Shown here: positions 6,072 to 49,940 of the stretch, in pieces
Numbering within the stretch: position 1 is the stretch's first letter
How the letters are laid out: every line of letters begins with the position of its first letter
DNA from: a virus
DNA length: 60,411 nt
Strand: one strand, 5' to 3'
Virus record (IMG/VR): IMGVR_UViG_3300009370_000029
Location: 1-60,411 of that record
Position numbers and translations under genes: made by a program
Notes under the pieces: generated by a model
Seen by the model: the letters and a program-made list of their open reading frames with translations, nothing else
Told to the model about the DNA's origin: nothing
The model's database searches: none

Positions 6072-7468
6072 ACTATAACCTCTGAAAAGTCTTTTCGTTC
6101 TTTTGCCATGCGTTGACCAATCGAGCTTCGATCCATGGCCGGAACATCTTCATCCGAAGATATGTCTTCTTGGGCCAATTGGTCGACATCATACAATCTC
6201 ATTTTTGTTCTATCTACACCAATAACAAATCTCGAATTTTTTGTTATATCTCCATATCTATTCTTTAATGTCTTGACCATAATCTGATCCAATTGCTGCA
6301 ACTCTTCGGTCAAGATCAAGGCAAGAAATAAATCCGCAGTAGCAGGAAGCCCCCAACTCTCGGCTACATTCTCCATGCCTACATCCGAACTAGAAAACCC
6401 ATCACGATTAATTTGTGTAGCTGTAAAAAGGGGAAGAGATCGTTCTACTGCAAATCCTCTTAGCTCTTCTGCAATGCTCTTTATGTATGCATACGAATTT
6501 ATATTACCACCCGGCTTAACTCTATTAGAAATGCAAATGTTAATATAATCAATAATCAAAACATCTGGTTGAAAATTCTTCTTCATCTTCAACTCATTCA
6601 ACAAATGTCTAAAATGAGAAACCCCCGCCTGAGCAGTAGGATATTCCTTAATTATCAATTTACCAATAGTAGAATCACGAACCTTTTGAACCTTCTTGTC
6701 GTACATATCTTTAGAAAGATCACGAAGATCTTTTATAGGAACATTCAACAAGTTTGCATCAATACGTTCTGAAATTCTTTCCTCTGCCATCTCTAGTGTA
6801 ATATATAGAACATTTTTTCCTTGTGTCAAATATGAAGCCGCAAAATGGCACAACGCCAATGTCTTGCCTATACCAGGACCAGACATCAGAACATTTAAGG
6901 TCTTGTCACAAATTCCTCCCTCTGTAATCTTATCAAAATATTCTAAACCAAATGGGATATGAACTTCGCGATTGTGATAAAATTCATAACGATCATCGGC
7001 GTCTTCTAGATAGTCATGCCCGACATGTGTGTCAAACGAAACAGCCAGAGCATCACTCAACAGTTGTGGAATCGCCCCTTTATCTGATTTGGTATTGCCA
7101 TCGAGAATCTGAATTGATTCCAATACAGCATTATATACAGATTTCTCTTGACAGAATTTTTCCGTTTCTGTCAACAACCAATCCGAATTAACGTCCTCGA
7201 TAGGCAATCCTATCTCTTTCAATATCTCGGCAGCAGATGATACGTCGGCCGCATTCAAACTTTCGTCATTATCCAACTCAATATATAATGCCTCAGGAGT
7301 GGGTAGCGCATTATACGCTTCAAAAAAAATAGATATACTTTCAAAAAGAATCTTTTCTGGTCTATCTAAAAAATATTCACTCTTTAAAAAGGGGATCACC
7401 TGTCGAATATACTGCTCGTCTTGCAATAATGTTCTCAGTATTGTTAGCTCTATTCTCGACATCTTCAT
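6068..7468 (-). CDS. 41: gp41 replicative helicase (DnaB-type)
   Basis: The 466-residue protein matches T4 gp41, the hexameric 5'-3' helicase that loads primase gp61 at the phage fork. The N-terminus [15 protein letters not shown] and segment [14 protein letters not shown] are typical of the family. The Walker A loop GPGIGKT is at residues 197-203 and a Walker B-like VLIIDYINI follows, with a RecA-type core to the end. The first 92 nt overlap the end of the upstream conserved gene, an unusually long overlap for this genome. Gene order uvsX - hypothetical - 41 is that of many T4-likes. Confidence 0.93.
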   Translation of the reverse strand: MKMSRIELTILRTLLQDEQYIRQVIPFLKSEYFLDRPEKILFESISIFFEAYNALPTPEALYIELDNDESLNAADVSSAAEILKEIGLPIEDVNSDWLLTETEKFCQEKSVYNAVLESIQILDGNTKSDKGAIPQLLSDALAVSFDTHVGHDYLEDADDRYEFYHNREVHIPFGLEYFDKITEGGICDKTLNVLMSGPGIGKTLALCHFAASYLTQGKNVLYITLEMAEERISERIDANLLNVPIKDLRDLSKDMYDKKVQKVRDSTIGKLIIKEYPTAQAGVSHFRHLLNELKMKKNFQPDVLIIDYINICISNRVKPGGNINSYAYIKSIAEELRGFAVERSLPLFTATQINRDGFSSSDVGMENVAESWGLPATADLFLALILTEELQQLDQIMVKTLKNRYGDITKNSRFVIGVDRTKMRLYDVDQLAQEDISSDEDVPAMDRSSIGQRMAKERKDFSEVIV

Positions 7469-7865
7469 CCTTTACCAATATCGTTTCTTCTTTATTTTCT
7501 TCAGCCCATTTATTTACTATATCTATCAAGATTGTAGCTAATAAATCAGAAAATTCTTTTTCCTTTTCTGGTGGATATTCGACACCCTGAATATTCTTGG
7601 GAATTTTAATTATATCATACTCATATTGAATTGTTCGCGTTTTATCTGGATTGTCTCTTGAGGCAAGTTTAAACCTACCATATCGATATACCAACCCAGC
7701 AAAATCGCCATGCAATAGTTCAACACACCTATAATCTGCGTTTTTGTCGTCAGGATGATCTACAAATCGATAATTATTTTCTAATGATATGAATGTATCA
7801 TCCGAATTTAAATCGAAATTGATTACTATTTCATCTTTATGAGGGCTGGAATTCTCCTTCGTCAT
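7377..7865 (-). CDS. Conserved phage protein between uvsX and 41
   Basis: The 162-residue, acidic protein begins [19 protein letters not shown] and includes [10 protein letters not shown] and [17 protein letters not shown] associate these blocks with an uncharacterised protein found at the same position in other environmental T4-like phages. No catalytic motif is visible. The gene overlaps uvsX by 29 nt at its start and gene 41 by 92 nt at its end, so it is embedded in the recombination/replication operon. A role beside UvsX or gp41 is inferred only from position. Confidence 0.75.
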
Positions 7866-8877
7866 CTTCTATTTCACTCCCGTATGTGAATTCTTTCTGG
7901 CAAATAACATCTAACTGATCGAGAATAACCTTCGTAAAATACTTTTCAGGATCCTTATATATGGCCTTTGCGAATACCTTTGTTCCGTCAGGCACTTCAA
8001 TTCGCGTTGACACCTTCTTAAATATTCCATGATCGACTGCAAGATCAATCAGTCCGTAATATCTATTTAGACCGGTATCATATCGAAGCAAAACATCGAC
8101 CATTTTATTCTCTTTGGTCAAACGAGACTTGTGATTCTTACAATGAATCACATGCCCAACCACTTCTGTTCCGTCCTTCTCCTTCTTGCGCGAGAGGTAG
8201 ACAATGTAATCGGCTGCATACTTTAGCCCTGCACCGCCTCCCATTTCCTTCTGCGGAAACATTGAACCAATGACATCGTAGGTATGATTCGTGACCACCA
8301 TGGGCACTTTAGCCCGCCCGAGCTTTAGGGTAAGCACTCGAAACGCAGCCTTAAGGATTGCAGCCCGAGTCATGTCCTTTGTCTCTTTACCCTCGGCGCT
8401 ATCTTCCATCTCTTTTGTAGTTGAAAGCATTCCAAGACTATCAAGGCATAGCATCAAAGGCCTTCTATCTACCTCTTTGTCTTCCATGTACTTTTCCAAA
8501 ACAACCAAAGCCTGATGGCGAAACTGTTGAACTGTGGCAACAGGAACAATCACCAACCTGTCAAGATCAATCCCTCGCTCTAAAAGCATCTTCTTTGTGA
8601 TGGCCGATTCACTCTCAAAGAAAATAACACCACCCTCTGGGTTATCCTTCAAGAATTGACTAACCACACCCAAGGTAAAATAAGTCTTCCCTGTAGATGA
8701 CTCGCCAGCAAGTGCGGTAATCTTATTACCAGGAAGCCCTTTGTAGATAGACCCCGAAAGCAGAGCATTTAAAATATATGAACCTGTATCAATGTATCGG
8801 TCCACATCGGCATAGGTATCCAAATACTCGTTGGTGCCTATAAGAGCCGACCCCAATGATTTAACATCATATCCCAT
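7837..8877 (-). CDS. uvsX: UvsX recombinase (RecA/Rad51 family)
   Basis: The 346-residue protein is the phage strand-exchange ATPase that coats ssDNA and drives recombination-dependent replication. The Walker A loop GESSTGKT is at residues 58-65; LMLCLDSLG is the Walker B strand, and [17 protein letters not shown] is a conserved UvsX block. The acidic C-terminus ([12 protein letters not shown]) resembles the T4 UvsX tail. Its partners UvsY and UvsW are encoded at 53.7-55.6 kb. It follows the ClpP-like gene by 2 nt, so the two are co-transcribed. Confidence 0.95.
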
Positions 8878-13119: not shown

Positions 13120-13617
13120 TTATTCATTTAGTTGTACAGGATCTCCGCCAGTTGAGGCGCCATTGATAGTAATTTTCTTTGGCTTCTTTTCCTCGGGGAT
13201 CTCGTTCACCAAGGATATAATAAGAAGCCCATTTACAAAAGAGGCTTCTGTTACCTTAATGGTCGGGCTGAGCGTCCATGAACGTTTGAAATTGCGGGCT
13301 GCAATTCCTTGATGGACATACTCGGCAGAATCGGCACTATGATCCTTGGCAGACTCGACAGTAAGGGTGTCTTCCTTTACAGTCACATCAATTTCTTCTG
13401 CTGCAAATCCAGCCAAGGCAATCTCAATAGCAAAGCTATCATAATCATCATTCCTTACAATATTGTACGGAGGATATGAAGTTGCCTGGGCTGAACCTAC
13501 TCCAGACGAAACAAGTCGGTCAAAGAGTTGGTCGAATCCCAGAAGGAATGGATCGTTTCTCAGTTGAGTAACAATCGTGGGGAGGTGTTCCGAGGTAAAT
13601 CTTGTGGTAGTAACCAT
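13120..13617 (-). CDS. hsp20: Small heat-shock protein (Hsp20/alpha-crystallin family)
   Basis: The 165-residue protein has an alpha-crystallin domain: YPPYNIVRNDDYDSFAIEIALAGF starts the domain (split here: VRNDDYD, IEIALAGF), IDVTVKEDTLTVE is the central strand pair, and NGLLIISLVNEIPE carries the conserved hydrophobic strand. PKKITI is the C-terminal I-x-I-like motif. Hsp20 proteins hold unfolded clients; phage copies are widespread in T4-like cyanophages and may assist head or tail assembly. The SD AAGGAG lies in a possible small hairpin in the 5' leader. Confidence 0.92.
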   Translation of the reverse strand: MVTTTRFTSEHLPTIVTQLRNDPFLLGFDQLFDRLVSSGVGSAQATSYPPYNIVRNDDYDSFAIEIALAGFAAEEIDVTVKEDTLTVESAKDHSADSAEYVHQGIAARNFKRSWTLSPTIKVTEASFVNGLLIISLVNEIPEEKKPKKITINGASTGGDPVQLNE

Positions 13618-13625
13618 ATTATTTT

Positions 13626-13638
13626 CTCCTTATAGAAA
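13626..13638 (-). promoter_or_regulatory. Possible SD-sequestering hairpin in hsp20 leader
   Basis: On the minus strand TTTCT, ATA, AGGAG form a 5-bp U-rich stem that covers the ribosome site, in the style of small RNA thermometers. A second hairpin with stem GATAGA/TCTATC lies just upstream (13655-13680). Confidence 0.3.
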
Positions 13639-13684
13639 GCAAGATTCATTTTTTGATAGACCCGACTTTCGGCATCTATCGTAC

Positions 13685-26517: not shown

Positions 26518-27744
26518 CTAGAACGGCGTCAGGTCTTCTCCTTCCTCGGTGCGAGGCGCAGCATCCGCAGCTTCGGCGGCGTCTGACCCATCCTCGCTTG
26601 ACGCATTATCGTCAACCTTTGTATACAGATCCATGAAGGAGGATTTCGTCTCCTCGTCGAACCGGTTGAGGCAGTACGTGATGGCCTTCAGGCGATCCGC
26701 CCAAATGCCGTACGCTTTCGCGATGTGGACGAGCCGTCGAGTCGCGATGACCTCATCCACGCCGCCCTCGTAGAAGGTTTTGCGGATAATGTCGGCCCAG
26801 GCGACCAGCTTCTCGGCAAAATCGTCATCCGGGCGACCAGCTGAGGTCAGCTCCTTTTTGACGATTTTCCGCTCGACGGCCATCGAGGGATATTCCTGCT
26901 CCATCGTGATCGGAAACCGTTCGAGCATGGCTTCATTCATGATGTTGGTTCCGACGAAGCGGCCATCATCCGAGCCCTTGCCCTTGGTGTTCGCGGTTGC
27001 GAGGATCGTGAAGCCGGGAGCCGGTTTCACAATTTCATTGATCTTTTTGAGAAGGATTGGCTTTCCTTCGAGGATCGGCTGAAGGCACATGAGTTTTTCA
27101 TCGCCGAGGTCGACCTCGTCCAGGAGCAGCACAGCCCCACGGCGCATGGCCTCGACCACGGGGCCGTCGAACCACACGGTTTCACCGTTGTGGAGACGGA
27201 AACCACCCAGAAGGTCGTCCTCGTCCGTCAACTTGGTGATATTGACGCGGAAAAGCTCGCGCTTGGCTCGCGCGCAGGCTTGCTCGACCATCAGGGTCTT
27301 GCCGTTGCCGGAAAGCCCGGTGATGAAGGTCGGATAAAACATCCCCGACCCGATCAACTGGGCGACATCCTTGAAATAGCCGAAAGGCACGTAATTGTCG
27401 AATTTCGCGGGGATCGCGCACTCGGTCAGGCTCGAGGCTTTCGCGAGAACCACGGGATCCACAGCGGGCGCAGCCGCGATGGGCGCAGGGGCCGCAGGTG
27501 CGACGGGAGCCGCGACCGTAGGCGCGCTGGGCGCAGGCGTTGCAGCCGCTCCCTCGACGGGGATGGTGAACCGTCCGCGACCAGCGCGGAAAGTCTTATC
27601 ATTGATAATCCACCAGGGGCGGGTCGCGCCTCCCATGGATTCGCAGATAGCGTCAATCTCGGGATATCCGACGACTGACCCTGCGGGATGACCGAGCGCC
27701 GCGGCGGCGTCGACCCATGCACGTTGTTTCTCTTTGAAAATCAT
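26518..27744 (-). CDS. cobS: CobS/MoxR-like AAA+ ATPase
   Basis: The 408-residue protein has an N-terminal domain with PWWIINDK, an Ala/Pro-rich linker (residues about 70-105) and a MoxR-type AAA+ core: Walker A GLSGNGKT near residue 145, LLLDEVDLGD as Walker B and ATANTKGKG as sensor 1. CobS-like ATPases power cobalt chelation with CobT in cobalamin synthesis, and phage homologues are common in marine T4-likes. Paired with the VWA protein upstream it probably forms a MoxR-VWA type chaperone complex; the target is unknown. The gene is markedly GC-rich. Confidence 0.8.
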   Translation of the reverse strand: MIFKEKQRAWVDAAAALGHPAGSVVGYPEIDAICESMGGATRPWWIINDKTFRAGRGRFTIPVEGAAATPAPSAPTVAAPVAPAAPAPIAAAPAVDPVVLAKASSLTECAIPAKFDNYVPFGYFKDVAQLIGSGMFYPTFITGLSGNGKTLMVEQACARAKRELFRVNITKLTDEDDLLGGFRLHNGETVWFDGPVVEAMRRGAVLLLDEVDLGDEKLMCLQPILEGKPILLKKINEIVKPAPGFTILATANTKGKGSDDGRFVGTNIMNEAMLERFPITMEQEYPSMAVERKIVKKELTSAGRPDDDFAEKLVAWADIIRKTFYEGGVDEVIATRRLVHIAKAYGIWADRLKAITYCLNRFDEETKSSFMDLYTKVDDNASSEDGSDAAEAADAAPRTEEGEDLTPF

Positions 27745-27781
27745 GTTCTATGTGGTTTCCTTCATCTCAAGTAACAGAGGG

Positions 27782-27810
27782 AGTATACCTCAGCCCCCAG
27801 GCAATGTCAA
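27782..27810 (-). promoter_or_regulatory. Strong sigma70 promoter (family copy 2)
   Basis: TTGACA (27805-27810), 17 bp, TATACT (27782-27787), giving a leader of about 30 nt before the CobS-like ATG. It is preceded by a T-run and the palindromic element at 27821-27903. Confidence 0.85.
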
Positions 27811-27820
27811 GGGTTTTGAC

Positions 27821-27903
27821 AAAAAAGATTCTTCAATGAAATCAAGCACTTAGGGCACTTTCCACCGTAAGTGCTTGAAATCATTGATGAATTTAGTTTA
27901 ACA
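27821..27903. repeat. Palindromic intergenic element, copy A
   Basis: Arms CAATGAAATCAAGCACTTA (from 27834) and TAAGTGCTTGAAATCATTG (from 27868) enclose a 15-nt loop. The segment TTAGGGCACTTTCCACCGTAA is the reverse complement, with one mismatch, of the loop segment of copy B at 30390-30465. On the minus strand the hairpin is followed by a six-T run, so it could also act as terminator for the CobT-like gene. Confidence 0.75.
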
Positions 27904-27919
27904 TCGGTCATGTGGGGCC

Positions 27920-30337
27920 TCACGAGGAGATCAGCTCCGTGAACTTTCGGAGGACGACTCGATTCCGCAGCTTGCCCTTCGAGGTCGACCGGAATGCGCG
28001 AGAAATGTCGGATTTCTTGGCTCCGACCAACTCATCTCCGAGACGCTCCTCGACCTCATCCTCGTTGCCGAGAATCATGTAGTGCTGGTCCCAGCCTTCG
28101 GGCGAATCCTCGATGGTGAAGCCGCCTTCCTTCTTGGCTTCCTTCCATGCAGCATTGGCTTCGGTCTCGACCGTCTGCCAGTCGTTCCGATCAGTATGTG
28201 CATTCTTGTAGGCGTACTTGAATCCGCTAGCCTTGGGGCTGGTGACATACATATTCACGACCTTAGAGCCAGTCCGAAGCCGTACAATCTCCAGCAGCGC
28301 AGGGAACTGGCCGCGCCCGTGATCGATCACAAACTCCTTGTGGGACTTCCGCTCGCGCAGGATGACCCGAGCCGGACCACCGTAGCGGTTGCGGCTTGCA
28401 TCCGAGTTGTGATAGGAGTTGAGGTTCCCACCGCATCCGTCAGTCAGGAAGACGGTGTTAACAATCTGAACCCTATTATCAGCACGGAATTTGTTGACAA
28501 TGGGGATCGCTGTAATCACAGCCTCGGAGAGCGGCGTGCCGCCCAGCCCGACCCAGCTGGGAACGGGGAAGCTGACGGACGCTCCGCGAGAGTAACCGTG
28601 ACCGAAGCCACCGCGCAACATGATCAGGGACAGGAGCATGTTCTGGAAATCGCTCTTGGTGCCCTTCGATCCAGCGAGGTGCAGCAGGTTGAAGTATTCT
28701 CGGCGAAAGGTGGCATCACCAGTCTCCAGGTGATTCTCATGCATCCGATCCTTGCAGACCCGACCATTCTCGGACCACAGACCCTTGTCCGCAGAGTCGG
28801 AGAAGCCGTAGACATCGAAGGGAATGTTGACCTTTTTACAGAAAAGGACGAGGTTCAGGATCTGCCCCAGCGTGTCCTCCATGTTAGAGGACATAGAGCC
28901 AGACCAATCCACGAACATCACCAGCCCATGGTTCTTACCATCAGCGACATCCGTGATTTTCTTGAAAAGATCATCATTCCATTTGTAAGAATGAATCTTG
29001 GCCATGTCAAGCGTCCCAGACCGTGCAGTCGTGGAGCGACGGTGCGAGTCCGCAGCCTTTCGCATCTCGAATTCCTTAACCAGGTAATTGATAACCTTGC
29101 CGTTATCACGCCGGAAGGAAGCAAGGGCTTTCTTGGCATCGTCGAGGGACGACATCTTGTATTTTTCGAGACTCCGGAGCTGGGCCGCGAAGATCTTAGC
29201 ATGAGGGATGATGATCGTGTCCAGATCGAAAGCCGCATCCTTGGGGATCTGCGCGTAGAGGGGATCCTCGTGAGAGGCATCCGTGTTGACCAGCTTCTCC
29301 TCGTTTTTACGCTGGGCTGCATCGGTCTCGGACCACGGGTCGCCCTGGGTGCGTCCATCGCTTCCATCAGTGTTGCGACCGGAGCCAGTCTCATCCGCTT
29401 TGCCGTCGCCGGAAGTGGGATCGCTATCCGAATCATCCTTGTCGGAGCTGTCCGCATCGGTGTCAGCCGATCCAGCCTCAGCCTCGTCCTCGGACTCATC
29501 GGAGTCGGAGCCAGAGCCCTCACCGTCCTCGGTGTCATCGCCGTCACCATCCGAGTCGGAACTATCATCGGAGGTGTTATCTCCGTCCTCATCATCGGAA
29601 GAGGACGAACCGTCCGAATCCTCGTCGGATTCATCGTCGTCGGAGGGCTCGAAACCCTCGCCCATCTCGCCTTCCTCGTCGGAGGGCTCGTCCGAGCTAG
29701 GACCGTAGTTAACATCGTCGGACGAATCCGTCTCGGCCATCTGGTCCTTCATGAGGTCCCAGAGGTCGGAAGCGATGGACTCTACATCAGCCCAGGACTC
29801 AGCCGCAGCCGTGCGATCCACGAAGGGCTGCTCCTCGTCCGTGAACTTGACGCCCATGGCCACGCCACCCTTGAAGTGCATGTTAATCCGATCGATCAGA
29901 CCGAATGAATTAACATCCCGTCCGTTGAGACCGAAAAAATCGCGATCCAGGAGCTCCTTGTAGCCCTGGGTGAAAGCCTTGCGGCCTCCCGGAAACTTCC
30001 GTTTCATCTTTTTTTCGATGCGCGCATCCTCGATCACATTAAGGAAGCCCTTGAAATTGGGACCCTTGGTCTTGTCGGATACAGCACCGTGCCACCCCGC
30101 GAGCGGAGTAAACAGAGCATGACCGTCCTCGTGCATCACCAGGAGGTCGTAAATGTCTTCGGAGATCCCAGTCCAGTTGGGCAGGATCAGGATGCGATCC
30201 TTAAGGTCGAAGGCTGCGGTCGTCGCATCCGCGCGGTGCTCGATGGAGATGTCCTCGGTCGCCAGGAGCTTGGCGAGCCGTGATTTGGACTCTGCGGAGA
30301 TCGCATGGATGTCTGCCTTGAGGTGTTTTTCGATCAT
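27920..30337 (-). CDS. cobT: CobT-like protein: HExxH domain, acidic linker, VWA domain
   Basis: The 805-residue protein has an N-terminal zincin-like motif HEDGH (residues 69-73) with IEDARIE near 101-107 as likely third ligand. Residues about 205-350 are a very Asp/Ser/Glu-rich linker. The C-terminal VWA domain has the MIDAS motif DWSGSMSS near residue 480 and a later LTDGCGG. CobT-like VWA proteins pair with CobS/MoxR ATPases, here the next gene. The promoter's -10 ends about 7 nt before the ATG and no ribosome site is visible, so a leaderless mRNA is predicted. The gene is GC-rich. Confidence 0.8.
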   Translation of the reverse strand: MIEKHLKADIHAISAESKSRLAKLLATEDISIEHRADATTAAFDLKDRILILPNWTGISEDIYDLLVMHEDGHALFTPLAGWHGAVSDKTKGPNFKGFLNVIEDARIEKKMKRKFPGGRKAFTQGYKELLDRDFFGLNGRDVNSFGLIDRINMHFKGGVAMGVKFTDEEQPFVDRTAAAESWADVESIASDLWDLMKDQMAETDSSDDVNYGPSSDEPSDEEGEMGEGFEPSDDDESDEDSDGSSSSDDEDGDNTSDDSSDSDGDGDDTEDGEGSGSDSDESEDEAEAGSADTDADSSDKDDSDSDPTSGDGKADETGSGRNTDGSDGRTQGDPWSETDAAQRKNEEKLVNTDASHEDPLYAQIPKDAAFDLDTIIIPHAKIFAAQLRSLEKYKMSSLDDAKKALASFRRDNGKVINYLVKEFEMRKAADSHRRSTTARSGTLDMAKIHSYKWNDDLFKKITDVADGKNHGLVMFVDWSGSMSSNMEDTLGQILNLVLFCKKVNIPFDVYGFSDSADKGLWSENGRVCKDRMHENHLETGDATFRREYFNLLHLAGSKGTKSDFQNMLLSLIMLRGGFGHGYSRGASVSFPVPSWVGLGGTPLSEAVITAIPIVNKFRADNRVQIVNTVFLTDGCGGNLNSYHNSDASRNRYGGPARVILRERKSHKEFVIDHGRGQFPALLEIVRLRTGSKVVNMYVTSPKASGFKYAYKNAHTDRNDWQTVETEANAAWKEAKKEGGFTIEDSPEGWDQHYMILGNEDEVEERLGDELVGAKKSDISRAFRSTSKGKLRNRVVLRKFTELISS

Positions 30338-39556: not shown

Positions 39557-39817
39557 CTATTCTCCGTTCTCTCCTTGCTGAAGAATATCTGATATTCTTT
39601 TCTCGTAGGAATCGCCCCAGAGCTTCCGTTCAAACTGTTGCTGATCATTTAACTGATCCACAATAGTTGTCAGTTTTTCGGTAGAGTCGTGTGCATTTTC
39701 TGCCTTTGTCATCCAACGCACGCCCCCACCAATAAGAGCCCCAAATGCAGCAAGTGTTAAAATTGTTGTAATGACACGCATTGGGTTGATTTTGAGTTCT
39801 ACTGTCTTTTCCATCAT
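39557..39817 (-). CDS. Membrane-anchored coiled-coil protein, i-spanin candidate
   Basis: The 86-residue protein has an N-terminal membrane segment (VITTILTLAAFGALIGGGV, about residues 15-33) followed by a charged, helical C-terminal part (STEKLTTIVDQLNDQQQFER). N-in/C-out with a periplasmic coil is the form of Rz-type i-spanins. The lipoprotein gene lies directly upstream. The pairing suggests a two-component spanin, but Rz usually precedes Rz1, so the order is unusual. Confidence 0.5.
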   Translation of the reverse strand: MMEKTVELKINPMRVITTILTLAAFGALIGGGVRWMTKAENAHDSTEKLTTIVDQLNDQQQFERKLWGDSYEKRISDILQQGENGE

Positions 39818-39823
39818 ACTATT

Positions 39824-40066
39824 TCACTCCGATAATGTTTCAGGGCCAGAAGGGCACCATACCCCACCCCATACTTTTTCGCATTTGGAATCTTCGGTGC
39901 ACATTAGTTTCCATAGATTGCTCTCGGCATCATTTTCTTCACACCAGGCTTCTCCCATCATATCTGGAGGAGTGGGAGGTTCAACAGGTGGAGGAAGAGG
40001 AATACATGAAAAAAAGAAGGTGAATACTATTGACAGCATAACCGTTTTAAGTATATTTCGCATCAT
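39824..40066 (-). CDS. Proline-rich lipoprotein, o-spanin candidate
   Basis: From ATG 40066 (AGGAGGG 7 nt upstream) the 80-residue protein has a lipoprotein signal peptide ending FTFFFSC and then IPLPPPVEPPTPP. A small lipoprotein with a proline-rich start is the hallmark of Rz1-type o-spanins. It also has five later cysteines, more than typical Rz1. CATAAATAG at 40092-40100 is a late-promoter-like motif. Confidence 0.6.
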   Translation of the reverse strand: MMRNILKTVMLSIVFTFFFSCIPLPPPVEPPTPPDMMGEAWCEENDAESNLWKLMCTEDSKCEKVWGGVWCPSGPETLSE

Positions 40067-40091
40067 CAATAATCCCTCCTGCTGCTGTTCA

Positions 40092-41298: not shown

Positions 41299-43866
41299 AT
41301 GAAATCATTCAACACATATACTGCAATGAAAGAAGTAACACGCCCAGCCAAGAGTGACAATACTATTAATATGTATAAGAAATCTAGGCTAGGCGGATAC
41401 ACAACTGACGAAGGGCATGATTGCGATGACGTGCACCCTGATGTCAGCCACAAGAAATGGGCTAAAACTGCTTCGGAGCAAAATGAAAACGTGGCCTATC
41501 TAAAGAACAAAGAGGGGCATACGTTTGTTGTCTCCAAGAGAAAGATAAAGGGAAAGAGTCAAGACAAATTCTCAATGTCTGTTGTTGACAAGAAGGGCAA
41601 GACCGTAAAGGATCATGGTTCTCATACCTCTGTTGCGGGCGCAAAGAAATTTGGGGCGAGTCGAGGATTTAAAGAGGAAGTCGAACTGCTTCCTGCTGAA
41701 TACATTCCCGACCATGGAGAGAGTCTTGACGAAATTTCTACTAAACTCAGACGAAAAGTTCGTAAATTAGCAAGAAGGCGAGAACACCAGGCAGTCCGGA
41801 ATCTTGACAAAATTATAGACAAAAAACCAGCAACAGCGTCACCCAAGGAAATAGAGGCAAATAAGAAGGAACGCAAGCCTTTCAAACGTCAAGCATATAA
41901 AAGATTCCGCACTCAGGCTCGTTTCGAGAAGGGAATAACTCCAAAAACCGACAAGACCGCGAGACGGCGCCGTGCAAAAAAAGCCCTGGCGGCGCGGAAG
42001 GGGAGCGGGACCCAGCCCCCTGGCTCCAGCCTGAATAAACGGATAAACATGCGTGGAAAGGATAGCCAGCCCCCTGCACCGGAGAAACGCCCCACCCAGG
42101 GCCCATCGAGGTACGCCGACAGCTACACCCCCGACCATGGGGAGTACATTGACGAACTGACCGACCTGACTGATTTTCTCAAGAAGGGCGGAAAGGTCAC
42201 AAAGCTCAAGCCCCGTGTTGCACGCGGTGCCACAAAGAGGCAGACAGTCAGAGCAAAGGGCAGTCGTCCAAATGCCAAGCAGCTTGCAGATAGAGCAGAA
42301 AAGAAGATGCGTCGAGAAGAAGCTGAAGCTGTTGACGAAGGAGGAATGGGCGGAATGCAAAGTGGTTCACGCAAGAGCAAAATTGAGAAGTCTGGAACAC
42401 ACTCCTCAATGCTAGCATATCTCACAAAATCTAAGAGAGCGGGCTGGAGTGATCGTGGGCGTTCTTCGGCTAAAGAGAAGAAACGAGCCAGCAAAGAGGC
42501 TCGTCAGGCAGGTAAGAAGGAAACTGAGGTTGATGAATCACATCCATATAGGCTCAAAAATAGAATGCAACAGGCGAGCAAAGAAGTCCTGACAGGAAAA
42601 AAGGCAGCCGTCGCAAAACTCAAATCCAAACAGGCAGCAGCCAATCGATCAAGCAAGTTCTGGTCTGGCAACAAGCAAAAGGCAACAACGAACGAAGGCA
42701 GAGTTAAAGTTGATGTGTCCCGAGGGCTTCGTGTGCGAGATCAGGAACAAGAAGCCCTAAAGAGAGAACGAGAAGCCCTAGAGAGAGAACGACGAAGTAA
42801 ACCAAGTAAACCCCGCATACAGACCCTTAAAACGGGACCACGGACTACGAGGCCAACCCGGAAAGGATATGTGCGCCCTGCGACAAGCAAAGAACATGAT
42901 GACGACATAACAGACGAATATAACGACATAACAGACACAAGGACAGAAGCCGCAGCAACTTTCGCTGCATCAGACCCTAGTGATGCTGGCTGGCGCAAAC
43001 ATGCACCCCCATCTCGTTCAAGTGGCGTTATCTCTGCGGTCAAGAAGGCCCTTGCAAAACGCAAGGCTGCCAAAGAATACAAGAATCTCAACCCAACGTC
43101 AAAACGAAAACGGCTTCATTACAAACCTGGCGATTCAATAAAACAAAAGGTTAGAGTCGAAAAAAATAAAGCTGCGCGTAGAAAAGAAAATATGAAAAAG
43201 TTAGGAACTCCAACAAGGGCTCATTATAAGAAAAGACTGAAAGATGTGCAAAGATCACAAAAAGCATATGCGAAAAGTGGAGGGAATTTATTGAAACATA
43301 TAGGTCTTGTGAAAGATGGGTTTGGAGAAGGAAAGAAATCAGGGCCACCATTTAAAGATAAAGATTGGAGAGATGAGGACAAATATTATAAAAACTTGCC
43401 TCCTGGAACACCAGGAAGAGATCTTCGTCCAAGAACCCCAAAAGAACAGAAAAAACTCGCCAAGGACGTGAGTCGGGCAATGCGTAACAGGCCCAAGGTA
43501 ACAGTAAAAATGGCGAGGAATAACACAGAAGATATGGACGAAGCAATATTTGATATGCCTATTGCAGACAAGGCAATAGACGCAGTAGGAAATGTTATTA
43601 AAAAAACAGCCAAAGGAACAGCAAAAATGGCAAGTAGAGCTATAACAAAGGCTATCAGAAAACGAGTGACAAAAAAAGGGAAGTTGGAAAGAGAACAGGA
43701 AAAACAAGAAAAAATTAAACTGCGACAAGAACGAGAAAAAACAGCCGAAGCAAAAAGAAAAGCAAGAGCAAAGCGGGAAACTCAACGACAACACGGAGAC
43801 AGAATAAGACGAAAGAAACTAGAACAACAACGAAGAGGATCAAAAGCGACAACTACCAATCCATAA
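41299..43866 (+). CDS. Large basic MKSF-leader protein, putative packaged polyprotein
   Basis: The 855-residue protein is extremely rich in Lys and Arg. It begins MKSFNTYTAMKE / VTRPAKS. Sites of the type (L/I/V/M)DE recur: ESLDE, EYIDE, EAVDE, TEVDE, EDMDE. Two sections share PDHGE(S/Y).DE. The basic blocks between the sites resemble separate DNA-binding peptides. The VDEGGMGG block also occurs in the right-edge protein (59792 on). I infer that a gp21-type protease may cut it into several basic head peptides. No catalytic domain is seen. Confidence 0.75.
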   Translation: MKSFNTYTAMKEVTRPAKSDNTINMYKKSRLGGYTTDEGHDCDDVHPDVSHKKWAKTASEQNENVAYLKNKEGHTFVVSKRKIKGKSQDKFSMSVVDKKGKTVKDHGSHTSVAGAKKFGASRGFKEEVELLPAEYIPDHGESLDEISTKLRRKVRKLARRREHQAVRNLDKIIDKKPATASPKEIEANKKERKPFKRQAYKRFRTQARFEKGITPKTDKTARRRRAKKALAARKGSGTQPPGSSLNKRINMRGKDSQPPAPEKRPTQGPSRYADSYTPDHGEYIDELTDLTDFLKKGGKVTKLKPRVARGATKRQTVRAKGSRPNAKQLADRAEKKMRREEAEAVDEGGMGGMQSGSRKSKIEKSGTHSSMLAYLTKSKRAGWSDRGRSSAKEKKRASKEARQAGKKETEVDESHPYRLKNRMQQASKEVLTGKKAAVAKLKSKQAAANRSSKFWSGNKQKATTNEGRVKVDVSRGLRVRDQEQEALKREREALERERRSKPSKPRIQTLKTGPRTTRPTRKGYVRPATSKEHDDDITDEYNDITDTRTEAAATFAASDPSDAGWRKHAPPSRSSGVISAVKKALAKRKAAKEYKNLNPTSKRKRLHYKPGDSIKQKVRVEKNKAARRKENMKKLGTPTRAHYKKRLKDVQRSQKAYAKSGGNLLKHIGLVKDGFGEGKKSGPPFKDKDWRDEDKYYKNLPPGTPGRDLRPRTPKEQKKLAKDVSRAMRNRPKVTVKMARNNTEDMDEAIFDMPIADKAIDAVGNVIKKTAKGTAKMASRAITKAIRKRVTKKGKLEREQEKQEKIKLRQEREKTAEAKRKARAKRETQRQHGDRIRRKKLEQQRRGSKATTTNP

Positions 43867-43884
43867 TATGAGGTGATAATACGC

Positions 43885-44232
43885 ATGTATGAATATAATG
43901 CAGAAGTATTGAGAGTATATGATGGTGATACAATTCGAGTGAATATTGATCTAGGGTTTGGAATCTTTATCCGAAACACATCTATTCGCCTAAAAGGTAT
44001 TAACACACCAGAAATCAGAGGCGAAGAAAAAGCCCAAGCCTATCTCGCAAGAGATCGTCTGATTGCGATACTGGCTTCGGCTGATAATCGTTGTCGAATC
44101 AAGACAACCAAGGGAAAAGAGCGCGGAAAGTATGGGCGCATCCTTGGTGACATATATGTAGGATCAAAAGAGACTGGTTGGAATCATGTCAACCAACAAT
44201 TGTTAGACGAGGGATATGCAAAAGCCTATTAG
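43885..44232 (+). CDS. Thermonuclease-like (SNase) nuclease
   Basis: From ATG 43885 (GAGGTG 9 nt upstream) the 115-residue protein has VLRVYDGDTIRVNID (metal-binding Asp), IRLKGINTPEIRG (catalytic Arg and Glu) and KYGRILGDI, the signature of staphylococcal-nuclease-type enzymes. There is no signal peptide, so it acts in the cytoplasm or virion. Its stop overlaps the stop of the convergent basic protein by 4 nt. A role in host DNA degradation or head DNA processing is possible. Confidence 0.88.
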   Translation: MYEYNAEVLRVYDGDTIRVNIDLGFGIFIRNTSIRLKGINTPEIRGEEKAQAYLARDRLIAILASADNRCRIKTTKGKERGKYGRILGDIYVGSKETGWNHVNQQLLDEGYAKAY

Positions 44233-44498
44233 TGTCTAACGTGTTGACCCTTAAAACTTCTAAGATGGCGTTTTTGTTCACCCTTCTTGGCTAGGAAGTG
44301 TCGTTGCCTCTCTTGTCTTTCTTCTTGGTCACTACGAAATCCTCGTTGTTTTCTACGATTATATCTTTGGCGCAATCGTCCTACTTCTATCCTATGTCTG
44401 GCTTTTTCTTGTTCTCTTGAACCAGGTCCACCTGCACGAAAACGAGACTCTTCTTCGTCTCCGCGTTCATTTATGATATATTCTATTAACGAGTACAT
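44229..44498 (-). CDS. Small very basic protein with leader (MYSLIEYIINE)
   Basis: From ATG 44498 with GGAGAGGAGG 7 nt upstream, the 89-residue protein begins MYSLIEYIINE / RGDEEE. INE fits the (L/I)xE site. The rest is about one third Arg/Lys (RQRYNRRKQRGFR), a strong nucleic-acid-binding composition. TATAAATAG at 44518-44526 provides a late promoter. I infer a packaged internal protein. Confidence 0.7.
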   Translation of the reverse strand: MYSLIEYIINERGDEEESRFRAGGPGSREQEKARHRIEVGRLRQRYNRRKQRGFRSDQEERQERQRHFLAKKGEQKRHLRSFKGQHVRH

Positions 44499-44517: not shown

Positions 44518-44526
44518 CTATTTATA
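44518..44526 (-). promoter_or_regulatory. Late promoter motif TATAAATAG
   Basis: It lies about 20 nt upstream of the basic protein start, immediately after the porin terminator hairpin. Confidence 0.7.
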
Positions 44527-44527
44527 T

Positions 44528-44565
44528 AAAAAAATCCCCGCACCATTTAGTTGGTGCGGGGATCT
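44528..44565 (-). terminator. Rho-independent terminator of the porin gene
   Basis: On the minus strand ATCCCCGCACC (44553-44563) pairs perfectly with GGTGCGGGGAT (44534-44544), followed by six Ts. This is the cleanest terminator in the window. Confidence 0.9.
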
Positions 44566-44599
44566 CTTTGGGGGGTCAGTGTCGTAATATATAGTATTC

Positions 44600-45784
44600 T
44601 TAGAATACGAACTGAAGCCCGACAATCACTCCATTATCTTTTTCACCAAGGAGTTTTTCGTTCCAAAGGTTGACTGACAACATAGTATTCGTTGCAGCAT
44701 CAAGAACAAAATTCAGACCATAATCATAGCGCGTCTGCTTACCACTTGCGGCACCATCAAAGTCAAATCTCTGATACCGAAAGAAAGGCTCAGGCGAAAG
44801 TGCCAAGGCATCTGTCAATTCAAATGCATAATCAAAATCATATGCAGCCTGAATGTAGAAACCATCACCTTCATTGAACCCTGTTCCCGGAACATATGCC
44901 ACATCATCAAGGTCATAATTGTAATAACCACCACTAAGAGACGCAGTTCCTTCGGCATTCGTAGGAAGCCCGGCTGCATCATCGGCAGTGACTGCTCTTG
45001 TGATTTCACCGTCGATGTTCCAACCAGTGTAATCTTCGCCTCTTACGATTGCATCATTCTGTGTCTGAAGTGCAAACCCAAGATTGACTGCCACGTCAGA
45101 TACTGTAGTCCCAGCATCGACACGCGCAGCAAACAGAGCATTGTCCTTATCACCGGCATCGTTCTCTACACCTTGGAAGACTCCAAAAGAATATCCAAGG
45201 TTAATAGGAAGCGCACCCACCGTGGGTGCCTCTGGTGCATTAAAATCTACACCACCATAAATGGCGGCACCATCAAGGCGACCATAACCACCCACCGAGG
45301 CATACTTTGATACCACAGTAGGAAGCGTCCAGGCTGTCTGACCATAATCACCCGCAAGACCTGCACGGTCCTGGGGTGCAAGAAAACGTCCAACTGTTAC
45401 CGACTTCAAGAAATCGAAATCTGTTCCCAAAATTCCCAAGTCTGCATGAATCGACGCATCGAGCAAGTCAAAAGCATTGCTGTCATTTTTTGCGGCATAC
45501 TGAGCAGTAAGGTCTGCGCCTACGCCGTAGTCAGTATTATCAATGCCTGCCGTGATGCGAATGTTGTCAATATCGACAAATTCGTCCTCATCGGCTCCGC
45601 CAAATGCAGCAGCACCACGAAGAGATGCGCCAAGATCAATAACCACCCCCGGATTGTCTGCCACTACGGCATTAGTGATCTCTTGTCCGACGGAAGACGA
45701 CGGAAAGAGAACAAGTAACGATAGCAGCCCTGATGCCGCCATCAACGATTTAAAATTAGAATTTTTGTTTTCTTCTTCACTCAT
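44600..45784 (-). CDS. Outer-membrane beta-barrel porin-like protein
   Basis: The 394-residue protein has an N-terminal signal-like hydrophobic stretch (LMAASGLLSLLVLFPSSSVG, about residues 14-33) and a long series of alternating amphipathic strands rich in Gly, Asp and Tyr. It ends VGLQFVF: a C-terminal Phe is the Bam signal of outer-membrane barrels. It resembles OprO/P-type or general porins. Phage-borne porins are rare and can alter nutrient uptake or block superinfection. It is flanked by terminators, so it is a self-contained moron-like gene. Confidence 0.8.
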   Translation of the reverse strand: MSEEENKNSNFKSLMAASGLLSLLVLFPSSSVGQEITNAVVADNPGVVIDLGASLRGAAAFGGADEDEFVDIDNIRITAGIDNTDYGVGADLTAQYAAKNDSNAFDLLDASIHADLGILGTDFDFLKSVTVGRFLAPQDRAGLAGDYGQTAWTLPTVVSKYASVGGYGRLDGAAIYGGVDFNAPEAPTVGALPINLGYSFGVFQGVENDAGDKDNALFAARVDAGTTVSDVAVNLGFALQTQNDAIVRGEDYTGWNIDGEITRAVTADDAAGLPTNAEGTASLSGGYYNYDLDDVAYVPGTGFNEGDGFYIQAAYDFDYAFELTDALALSPEPFFRYQRFDFDGAASGKQTRYDYGLNFVLDAATNTMLSVNLWNEKLLGEKDNGVIVGLQFVF

Positions 45785-45817
45785 ATGAGTTATACTCCTT
45801 ATGTTGTTATAACCTAC

Positions 45818-45845
45818 AAAAAGACGCGCGCTAACGCACGTCTTT
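45818..45845 (-). terminator. Hairpin between methyltransferase and porin genes
   Basis: On the minus strand GACGTGCG pairs with CGCGCGTC with flanking A and T runs (AAAAGACG...CGTCTTTTT). It would terminate the methyltransferase operon or act in the porin leader, as a TCTAAATA late-like motif lies just upstream of it (45857-45864). Confidence 0.75.
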
Positions 45846-45901
45846 TGCGTTAAAGTTTATTTAGACAACTGATTGTCTTCAAACGCAAATGTAGTTCGTT
45901 T

Positions 45902-48486: not shown

Positions 48487-48790
48487 AAAGATTTCTCACT
48501 TCCTCAATAATATCATCTACATTAAAAATGTTCGCATAGGCACTCTTTGTCTTAACCTCGTTCAAATAAGCCTTTTCATATTTTGGTTTCCTCCACACAG
48601 AATTTGTCGTTGCATCCTCGTCGCAAATAGAAATTTCATATATCTCTTGTGTTATCTCATCGAATACGATACAAACATTCTTTTCTAGATCTAAGTATCT
48701 TGCCTGTTCACCATAACAGTTTAGGTTATACTCATCACCTCCAACAATTTTAGGCGGAACAATATTAAAAAACTCTGTTAGATGTACCAT
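48461..48790 (-). CDS. Small hypothetical protein in modification cassette
   Basis: From ATG 48790 (GGGAG 7 nt upstream) the 109-residue acidic protein begins MVHLTEFFNIVPPKIVGGDE and has a strand-rich centre (NVCIVFDEITQEIYEISI). No family is recognised. It overlaps both flanking genes by about 26 nt, so the cassette is translationally coupled. Confidence 0.6.
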   Translation of the reverse strand: MVHLTEFFNIVPPKIVGGDEYNLNCYGEQARYLDLEKNVCIVFDEITQEIYEISICDEDATTNSVWRKPKYEKAYLNEVKTKSAYANIFNVDDIIEEVRNLYEFNKVLV

Positions 48791-49940
48791 CAATCAACTC
48801 CCTTATTTTATCATTGGCTTCGACATCGACGACCAAATGAATCCTATCTGTTGTACCATTATTTACTGCACTATGAGGCTTGCGGGTATCTAGGTACCAA
48901 CATTCCCCTTCTCTCATATGTATAGTCTTTTTTGTGCCGTCTACCTGCCATATTGTAAATAATACATCTTCATTGGTGATAAGAGGGAAATGAAATCGCA
49001 TTACATTACCATTCTTGACTCCTGTGTCTGGATCGACCTGGTCAGTATGCCTTTCAAGTTCTCCTCCATTAGGAGCAAGACGCATCAAACGAATACGATG
49101 AAGATTAGAGCCAAATAGATTTACTGTCTCTAAAGGATATTCTACTTGAGGGAGTCTCATTCGTAGTTCTGTATCCTGCATGACGAAATCTTCCTTAATG
49201 TGTTCCAGTTGCCATTTCTTACTCATTTCTACAGGCTTGGTAATAAATGCAGGGTCGGGTGAGTATCCCCTGAGAGACAAGGCTGACCATGATTTACCTT
49301 TGTTGTAGTTAGAGTAATGATTGGTGTATTCCTCGTCAAAATCTTTAATTGCATCAATAAGAGGTTGTATAGAAGTATACAGTTCCGCGGGGTCTATGTC
49401 AACCCTTTCTAGTGAACAATCTTCAACTTTTAATCGAGTGGGATGCTGTCTAGGCTCATTAAATAACATGTTCCTTGCATCTTTATAGTAGACTGCATAA
49501 AGTTCTCCAAATGTGGTGACCTTTGTGCCTACCCATTCAAAGCCTGCCTTTTTTGCTATATCATTTGCTTCCTTATCTTCTGCCCATATATACAACCAAC
49601 ATGGCTCGGTGAATGATTCTATCACCTCTGTTGCAGTTTTTTCATGCCCTTCTTTCCATGCTAGTTTAGTTATAACCCGGTCGCCCTTCTCTTTTACGCC
49701 AATCTTGACATTCCCGTACATTGTAATGGCCGACCTAGTTTTTGCTATTTTTGTATCAACCATGACAATACGTTTTTCGTCATGTTCATATATTTTTAGA
49801 GTATTACCGTATAATCCTGATGCAATGGTATTCTTTTTCATCGCACTAAATGGTGAACAAGAGTGTGTATTATATCTTGAATAGAAATCTTCTAACTCAA
49901 GAAGGTATTCAAGAAGGTATCCTTTCTGCCAGTCCTTCAT
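48765..49940 (-). CDS. GNAT-like / aspartyl-beta-hydroxylase-like fusion
   Basis: The 391-residue protein appears to have two domains. Residues about 35-155 resemble a GNAT acyltransferase (…ANDIAKKAGFEWVGTKV, GELYAVYYKD). Residues about 230-380 resemble an Asp/Asn beta-hydroxylase: ELERHTDQVDP gives HxD and DRIHLVVDVE the distal His, with HMREGECWYLDTRKPHSAVN between. The fusion is unusual. It may modify a base, an amino acid or a protein in the cassette with the methyltransferase and PLP-type enzyme. It overlaps gene 46 (ATGA). Confidence 0.65.
   Translation of the reverse strand: MKDWQKGYLLEYLLELEDFYSRYNTHSCSPFSAMKKNTIASGLYGNTLKIYEHDEKRIVMVDTKIAKTRSAITMYGNVKIGVKEKGDRVITKLAWKEGHEKTATEVIESFTEPCWLYIWAEDKEANDIAKKAGFEWVGTKVTTFGELYAVYYKDARNMLFNEPRQHPTRLKVEDCSLERVDIDPAELYTSIQPLIDAIKDFDEEYTNHYSNYNKGKSWSALSLRGYSPDPAFITKPVEMSKKWQLEHIKEDFVMQDTELRMRLPQVEYPLETVNLFGSNLHRIRLMRLAPNGGELERHTDQVDPDTGVKNGNVMRFHFPLITNEDVLFTIWQVDGTKKTIHMREGECWYLDTRKPHSAVNNGTTDRIHLVVDVEANDKIRELIDGTSNRVF

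Follow-up and report, generated by a model that had tools for sequence, protein, structure and literature searches.

We found that a T4-like phage encodes an outer-membrane porin related to bacterial porins whose genes mostly stand beside the urt genes, which specify a urea ABC transporter. The gene lies in the window, by which we mean the whole stretch of 60,411 nucleotides of viral DNA that was analysed. Two conclusions are well supported: the porin is predicted to have the fold of OprO and OprP, and, judged from sequence comparison, it appears to be a member of, or sister to, the bacterial family of urt-linked porins. As to its function, the reading that we favour, with a probability of about 0.5, is that of an auxiliary porin in the outer membrane, one of the urt/Fmd-linked kind, through which more urea, short amides or other solutes like these would enter. 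We infer the substrate of this porin, the timing of its expression, its insertion into the membrane and its benefit.

The porin gene in the window and in kin phages

The window encodes the T4-like proteins gp23, gp22, gp21, gp19, DNA polymerase and UvsX, as well as gp41, gp44, gp45, gp46/47 and gp55, a repertoire that spans capsid, replication, recombination and the late sigma factor. Among cultured phages, the nearest to it in capsid protein is Melnitz, a phage of Methylophilales (60% identity), which is too distant for host assignment. The porin gene and the elements around it are as follows.

44600..45784 (-): porin coding sequence for 394 aa, with 16 beta strands predicted and Phe as the last residue
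45686..45784 (-): signal-peptide region, covering residues 1-33; the model has a helix at 9-25, and the exact point of cleavage was placed by eye
45278..45382 (-): loop L3 (residues 135-169), where the pore should be constricted, with topology taken from 16-strand porins
45795..45800 (-): AAGGAG, the ribosome-binding site, which three kin phages also have
45818..45845 (-): hairpin and T run, separating the upstream methyltransferase-like ORF from the porin
45858..45865 (-): late-promoter-like TCTAAATA, 81 nt 5' of the porin start codon
44528..44565 (-): strong intrinsic-terminator-like hairpin, directly 3' of the porin, z -8.7
44519..44526 (-): a perfect copy of the late-promoter motif TATAAATA, which belongs to the next small ORF (44229-44498) and not to the porin

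The reading frame opens with an ATG, its product has a hydrophobic segment at the N-terminus and ends in ...GLQFVF. The first-pass annotation had placed this gene between two hairpins, and these are real: both are far more stable than shuffled sequence (z -3.9 for the one at 45818-45845 and -8.7 for the one at 44528-44565, with 0 to 1 of 200 shuffles equally stable in either case), and a T run lies 3' of each. The same annotation described the arrangement as a moron. A moron would be a transcription unit with a promoter and terminator of its own that close kin lack at the site. A downstream terminator and a late-promoter-like motif are present, but the term is loose here, because the T4-like phage encodes a late sigma factor and no integrase was seen among the window genes scanned.

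Three other viral contigs (L166-L168) encode the porin, with 34-37% identity over the aligned length. These are kin phages, since they share 56-69% identity with the window in DNA polymerase, UvsX and gp44. In all three the porin gene stands between gp45 and gp44, two genes that nearly abut in the window, where the porin adjoins the methyltransferase-like ORF instead. In a further contig (L002), a relative of this upstream gene is not followed by a porin. L168 also has an AmtB gene (PF00909, E 1e-105), placed 3' of the porin and before gp44. This ammonium transporter gene (7452-8663, plus strand) is itself preceded by TATAAATA and a strong hairpin. We found amtB in only one of the four porin phages, whose sequences are partial, and no glnK was seen with phage porin and amtB. 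A further viral scan with a 64-row alignment gave no confirmed relatives, and the phage form of the porin therefore looks rare in IMG/VR. Pattern-based scans can, however, overlook distant copies, and this one missed the three porins known from L166-L168.

The order of the leader is common to all four phage porins: TATAAATA or TCTAAATA, followed by a hairpin, AAGGAG and the start codon. The window has TCTAAATA at the place where the kin phages have TATAAATA, and this match taken alone is no rarer than chance. The hairpin occupies the same relative place in L166-L168, its stem shows compensating changes between L166 and L168 (CCCCGG/CCGGGG versus CTCCAG/CTGGAG), and it matches no Rfam family. 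Since the succession of promoter, hairpin and ribosome-binding site recurs in three kin phages, the hairpin at 45818-45845 may belong to the leader of the porin besides marking where the upstream gene ends. TATAAATA is also found 5' of gp22 and gp23 in the window. This, together with the motifs in the porin leaders and the encoded late sigma factor, makes late expression of the porin likely, as far as sequence allows one to judge.

Fold, chemistry and bacterial relatives

From the single sequence, AlphaFold2 produced a meaningless model (pLDDT 30.6). When 63 relatives were supplied in the 64-row alignment, mean pLDDT reached 80.4 and pTM 0.81, and the model shows 16 strands, preceded by an N-terminal helix (residues 9-25). 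With the C-terminal Phe, these features bear out the outer-membrane barrel claimed in the first-pass annotation. The model falls in the structural class of 16-stranded outer-membrane porins, the inward placement of L3 being deduced from strand order. Its best matches among solved structures (VIA-align) are OprO (Z 27.7) and OprP (Z 27.6), phosphate and polyphosphate porins of PF07396, which form a group at Z 27.5-27.7 with an rmsd of 3.0 over about 305 residues. The next fold group comes about four units lower, at Z 23.7.

In sequence, OprO and OprP are 15-16% identical to the window porin. No Pfam family was matched at E<=10, and the window protein does not reach the gathering cut-off of PF07396 (Porin_O_P), which some bacterial relatives pass. 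PHROG gave no meaningful match for the porin and NCBIfam only a weak one to porin_ExtI (E 0.014). Searches with the single sequence found no match among PDB sequences, viral contigs and genome contigs, nor in 50,697 phage records. Predicted large porin barrels are also encoded by other phages, but these are 8-14% identical to the window porin and show no sequence relation to it.

The mature protein contains 18 Lys+Arg and has a net charge of -36, against 47 Lys+Arg reported for OprP/OprO (PMC5877670). It therefore differs from them in lacking their richness in Arg and Lys (arginine ladder, lysine cluster). The residues R56, R76, D109, R133, R140, R169, R221, D258 and R336, which are conserved in bacteria, are all kept in the window porin; R140 lies within loop L3, with R133 and R169 at its borders. 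The segment DPExxGYYxSSTYYG, placed between strands 8 and 9, is absent from all four phage porins, whereas the tyrosines of YYxSSTYYG are 97-98% conserved among the bacterial relatives. By strand order this segment is a periplasmic turn. One might speculate that its loss has rendered the phage porins independent of a periplasmic partner.

The bacterial relatives came to light in a tblastn search of plasmids, which found one in Methylosinus (E 5e-12), immediately 5' of urtABCDE and ureD, and one in Niveispirillum, immediately 5' of urtABCDE. Aligned with the window porin, these led to 80 bacterial loci, a set seeded with urt-linked members, in which most loci have urtA nearby and 25 have no urtA in view. 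Because of this seeding we built a profile from the phage porins only. It gave 26 matches in about 750 proteobacterial genomes of two classes (5 of the 385 from the class of genome G007 and 21 of the 369 from that of G006). The same-strand downstream neighbour is urtA in 22 of the 26 matched genomes (5/5 and 17/21), a count that includes the centres of both class searches, which are urt- or fmd-linked genomes themselves. Among the remaining four, the Methyloversatilis relative is preceded by urtBCDE-like genes and a formamidase, and three have no urt gene in the stretch examined, one of them being near a contig end. All nine neighbouring UrtA proteins that were tested pass the cut-off of TIGR03407, a curated urea transporter family. 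As a control, none of the 30 top-scoring classic PF07396 porin loci of the same class has urtA within about 1.5 kb, and the phage-only profile matched none of these 30 loci.

The phage porins are about 22-33% identical to their bacterial relatives and form one clade (SH-aLRT 100) on a long separate branch. Rooting with classic porins is compatible with a place of this clade inside the bacterial family as well as beside it (p-AU 0.53), with some control rows on very long branches that are possibly wrongly chosen ORFs. Urt-linked bacterial porins, such as WP_003612718.1 from the Methylosinus trichosporium plasmid pOB3b1, are similar in length to the phage porin and have the conserved Arg and Asp residues and the C-terminal Phe in common with it. 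They adjoin urtABCDE, whereas no urt genes were found in the window or in the kin phage contigs, which are partial. Some bacterial loci also encode hybrid histidine kinases, adjoining the porin gene in Nitrospirillum (L096, 6998-10486) and near it in Methylosinus (L084, 1694-5062); these kinases may sense the nitrogen source.

Function and competing explanations

Under the nitrogen reading, the porin would be made during infection, probably from a late promoter, then exported and inserted into the host outer membrane. The added channels would pass small neutral nitrogen solutes, e.g. urea and short amides, which host inner-membrane transporters (Urt, Amt) would carry inward, and the nitrogen gained would feed phage synthesis. 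The urt-linked kinship of the porin and its amtB neighbour in a kin phage suggest that these phages may in this way aid the nitrogen uptake of infected cells. What weighs against a nutritional role is that a late promoter suits nutrient supply less than an early one. We advance more tentatively a specific version, in which a T4-like lineage would have its own remodelled urea/short-amide porin under late promoters, letting dissolved organic nitrogen through the outer membrane during the assembly of phage particles, and one phage would have added amtB. Because identity is 22-33%, the branch long and the YYxSSTYYG turn missing, the substrate of the phage porins may have changed from that of their bacterial kin.

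The long branch, the low identity to bacterial relatives, the loss of a conserved turn and the strong acidity would also suit an outer-membrane porin for a different solute or for general diffusion, its urt kinship reflecting bacterial ancestry only, and a minority of the bacterial relatives indeed lack urtA nearby. We consider this rather unlikely, given that the conserved arginines are retained along with Asp109 and Asp258, and that in one kin phage the porin is accompanied by an ammonium transporter. A late-promoter-like motif upstream would put expression near lysis, and it is generally known that phages can encode outer-membrane proteins that act at the surface. Both points fit a porin that changes the surface of the cell, by masking a receptor or taking its place, so as to block superinfection or to keep progeny off debris. 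Yet proteins that mask receptors tend to be small lipoproteins and not complete 16-strand channels, and the urt-linked kinship and the amtB neighbour are a more specific cue, which makes a surface role improbable in our eyes.

The first-pass annotation had proposed a change in phosphate or solute uptake. Solute uptake is compatible with the kinship to porins of urea loci, but the phosphate option is not sustained. The name Porin_O_P and the best structural matches, OprO and OprP, would speak for a phosphate-selective porin, but the few basic residues, the acidic net charge and the lack of a PF07396 match disfavour it, and so do relatives that adjoin urea genes rather than phosphate genes and classic members that go unmatched by the phage profile. 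We give this selectivity very little credit, and the label 'phosphate porin' misleads for the OprO/OprP fold. The lack of matches in 50,697 phage records might hint at a bacterial contaminant or a misassembly. This is refuted in practice, and its probability is close to negligible: its three closest relatives come from within other T4-like viral contigs, where each stands between gp45 and gp44 and is preceded by a leader identical in order.

The nitrogen reading finds a parallel in viruses of oxygen-minimum zones, whose glnK-amtB-ompL cassette has been read as serving nitrogen uptake (Gazitua 2020, PMC8115048). There too a virus-encoded porin stands beside amtB, but this OmpL-like porin was traced by its authors to Flavobacteriales (PMC8115048) and, going by its description, differs from the urt-linked kind with an OprO/P fold found here. 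A second parallel is FmdC, a porin of the urea/short-amide type (Mills 1997, here through its citation in PMC5877670). It is likened to the phage porin by gene context and not by sequence, through the Methyloversatilis relative that lies beside a formamidase and urtBCDE-like genes. Viral porins and the viral glnK-amtB-ompL cassette were thus already known, and what is new here is a phage porin akin to the urt-linked kind, with the OprO/P fold; with the search terms used, we found no paper linking a phage porin to urt-type porins. At the inner membrane, viral genes for nitrogen uptake (amtB, glnK) were already known; should the porin pass urea or amides, phages would govern the entry of organic nitrogen at the outer membrane as well.

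Other features of the phage contigs

A ROSE_3-like RNA thermometer lies just 5' of a phage Hsp20 gene in the window (13612-13681, minus strand) and in L168 (11900-11966, plus strand). The L168 copy scores 47.3 bits, which exceeds the cut-off of 43. The copy in the window stays below the cut-off at 34.3 bits (E 1.7e-5, search of 401 bases). It would be unusual for a phage to have a heat-shock gene behind a thermosensor leader. On the minus strand at 39557-39817 and 39824-40069, a small membrane/coiled protein is encoded beside a proline-rich lipoprotein-like ORF (CIPLPPPVEPPTPP), and the two are possibly a spanin pair. The first of them (39557-39817) has a weak relative between the porin and amtB in L168 (E 2e-6).

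An ORF of 855 aa, rich in Lys and Arg, occupies 41299-43866 on the plus strand, opposite to the porin; it carries recurring acidic segments, e.g. EYIPDHGE, and has no Pfam or PHROG match. The region 26518-30337 (minus strand) carries a CobS-like ATPase gene and a peptidase-like gene, which have a GC content of 0.57-0.60, against 0.44 for the window. Finally, a protein with an Aspartyl/asparaginyl beta-hydroxylase domain (PF05118) is encoded at 48765-49940 (minus strand), in a gene run that the window has in common with contig L003.
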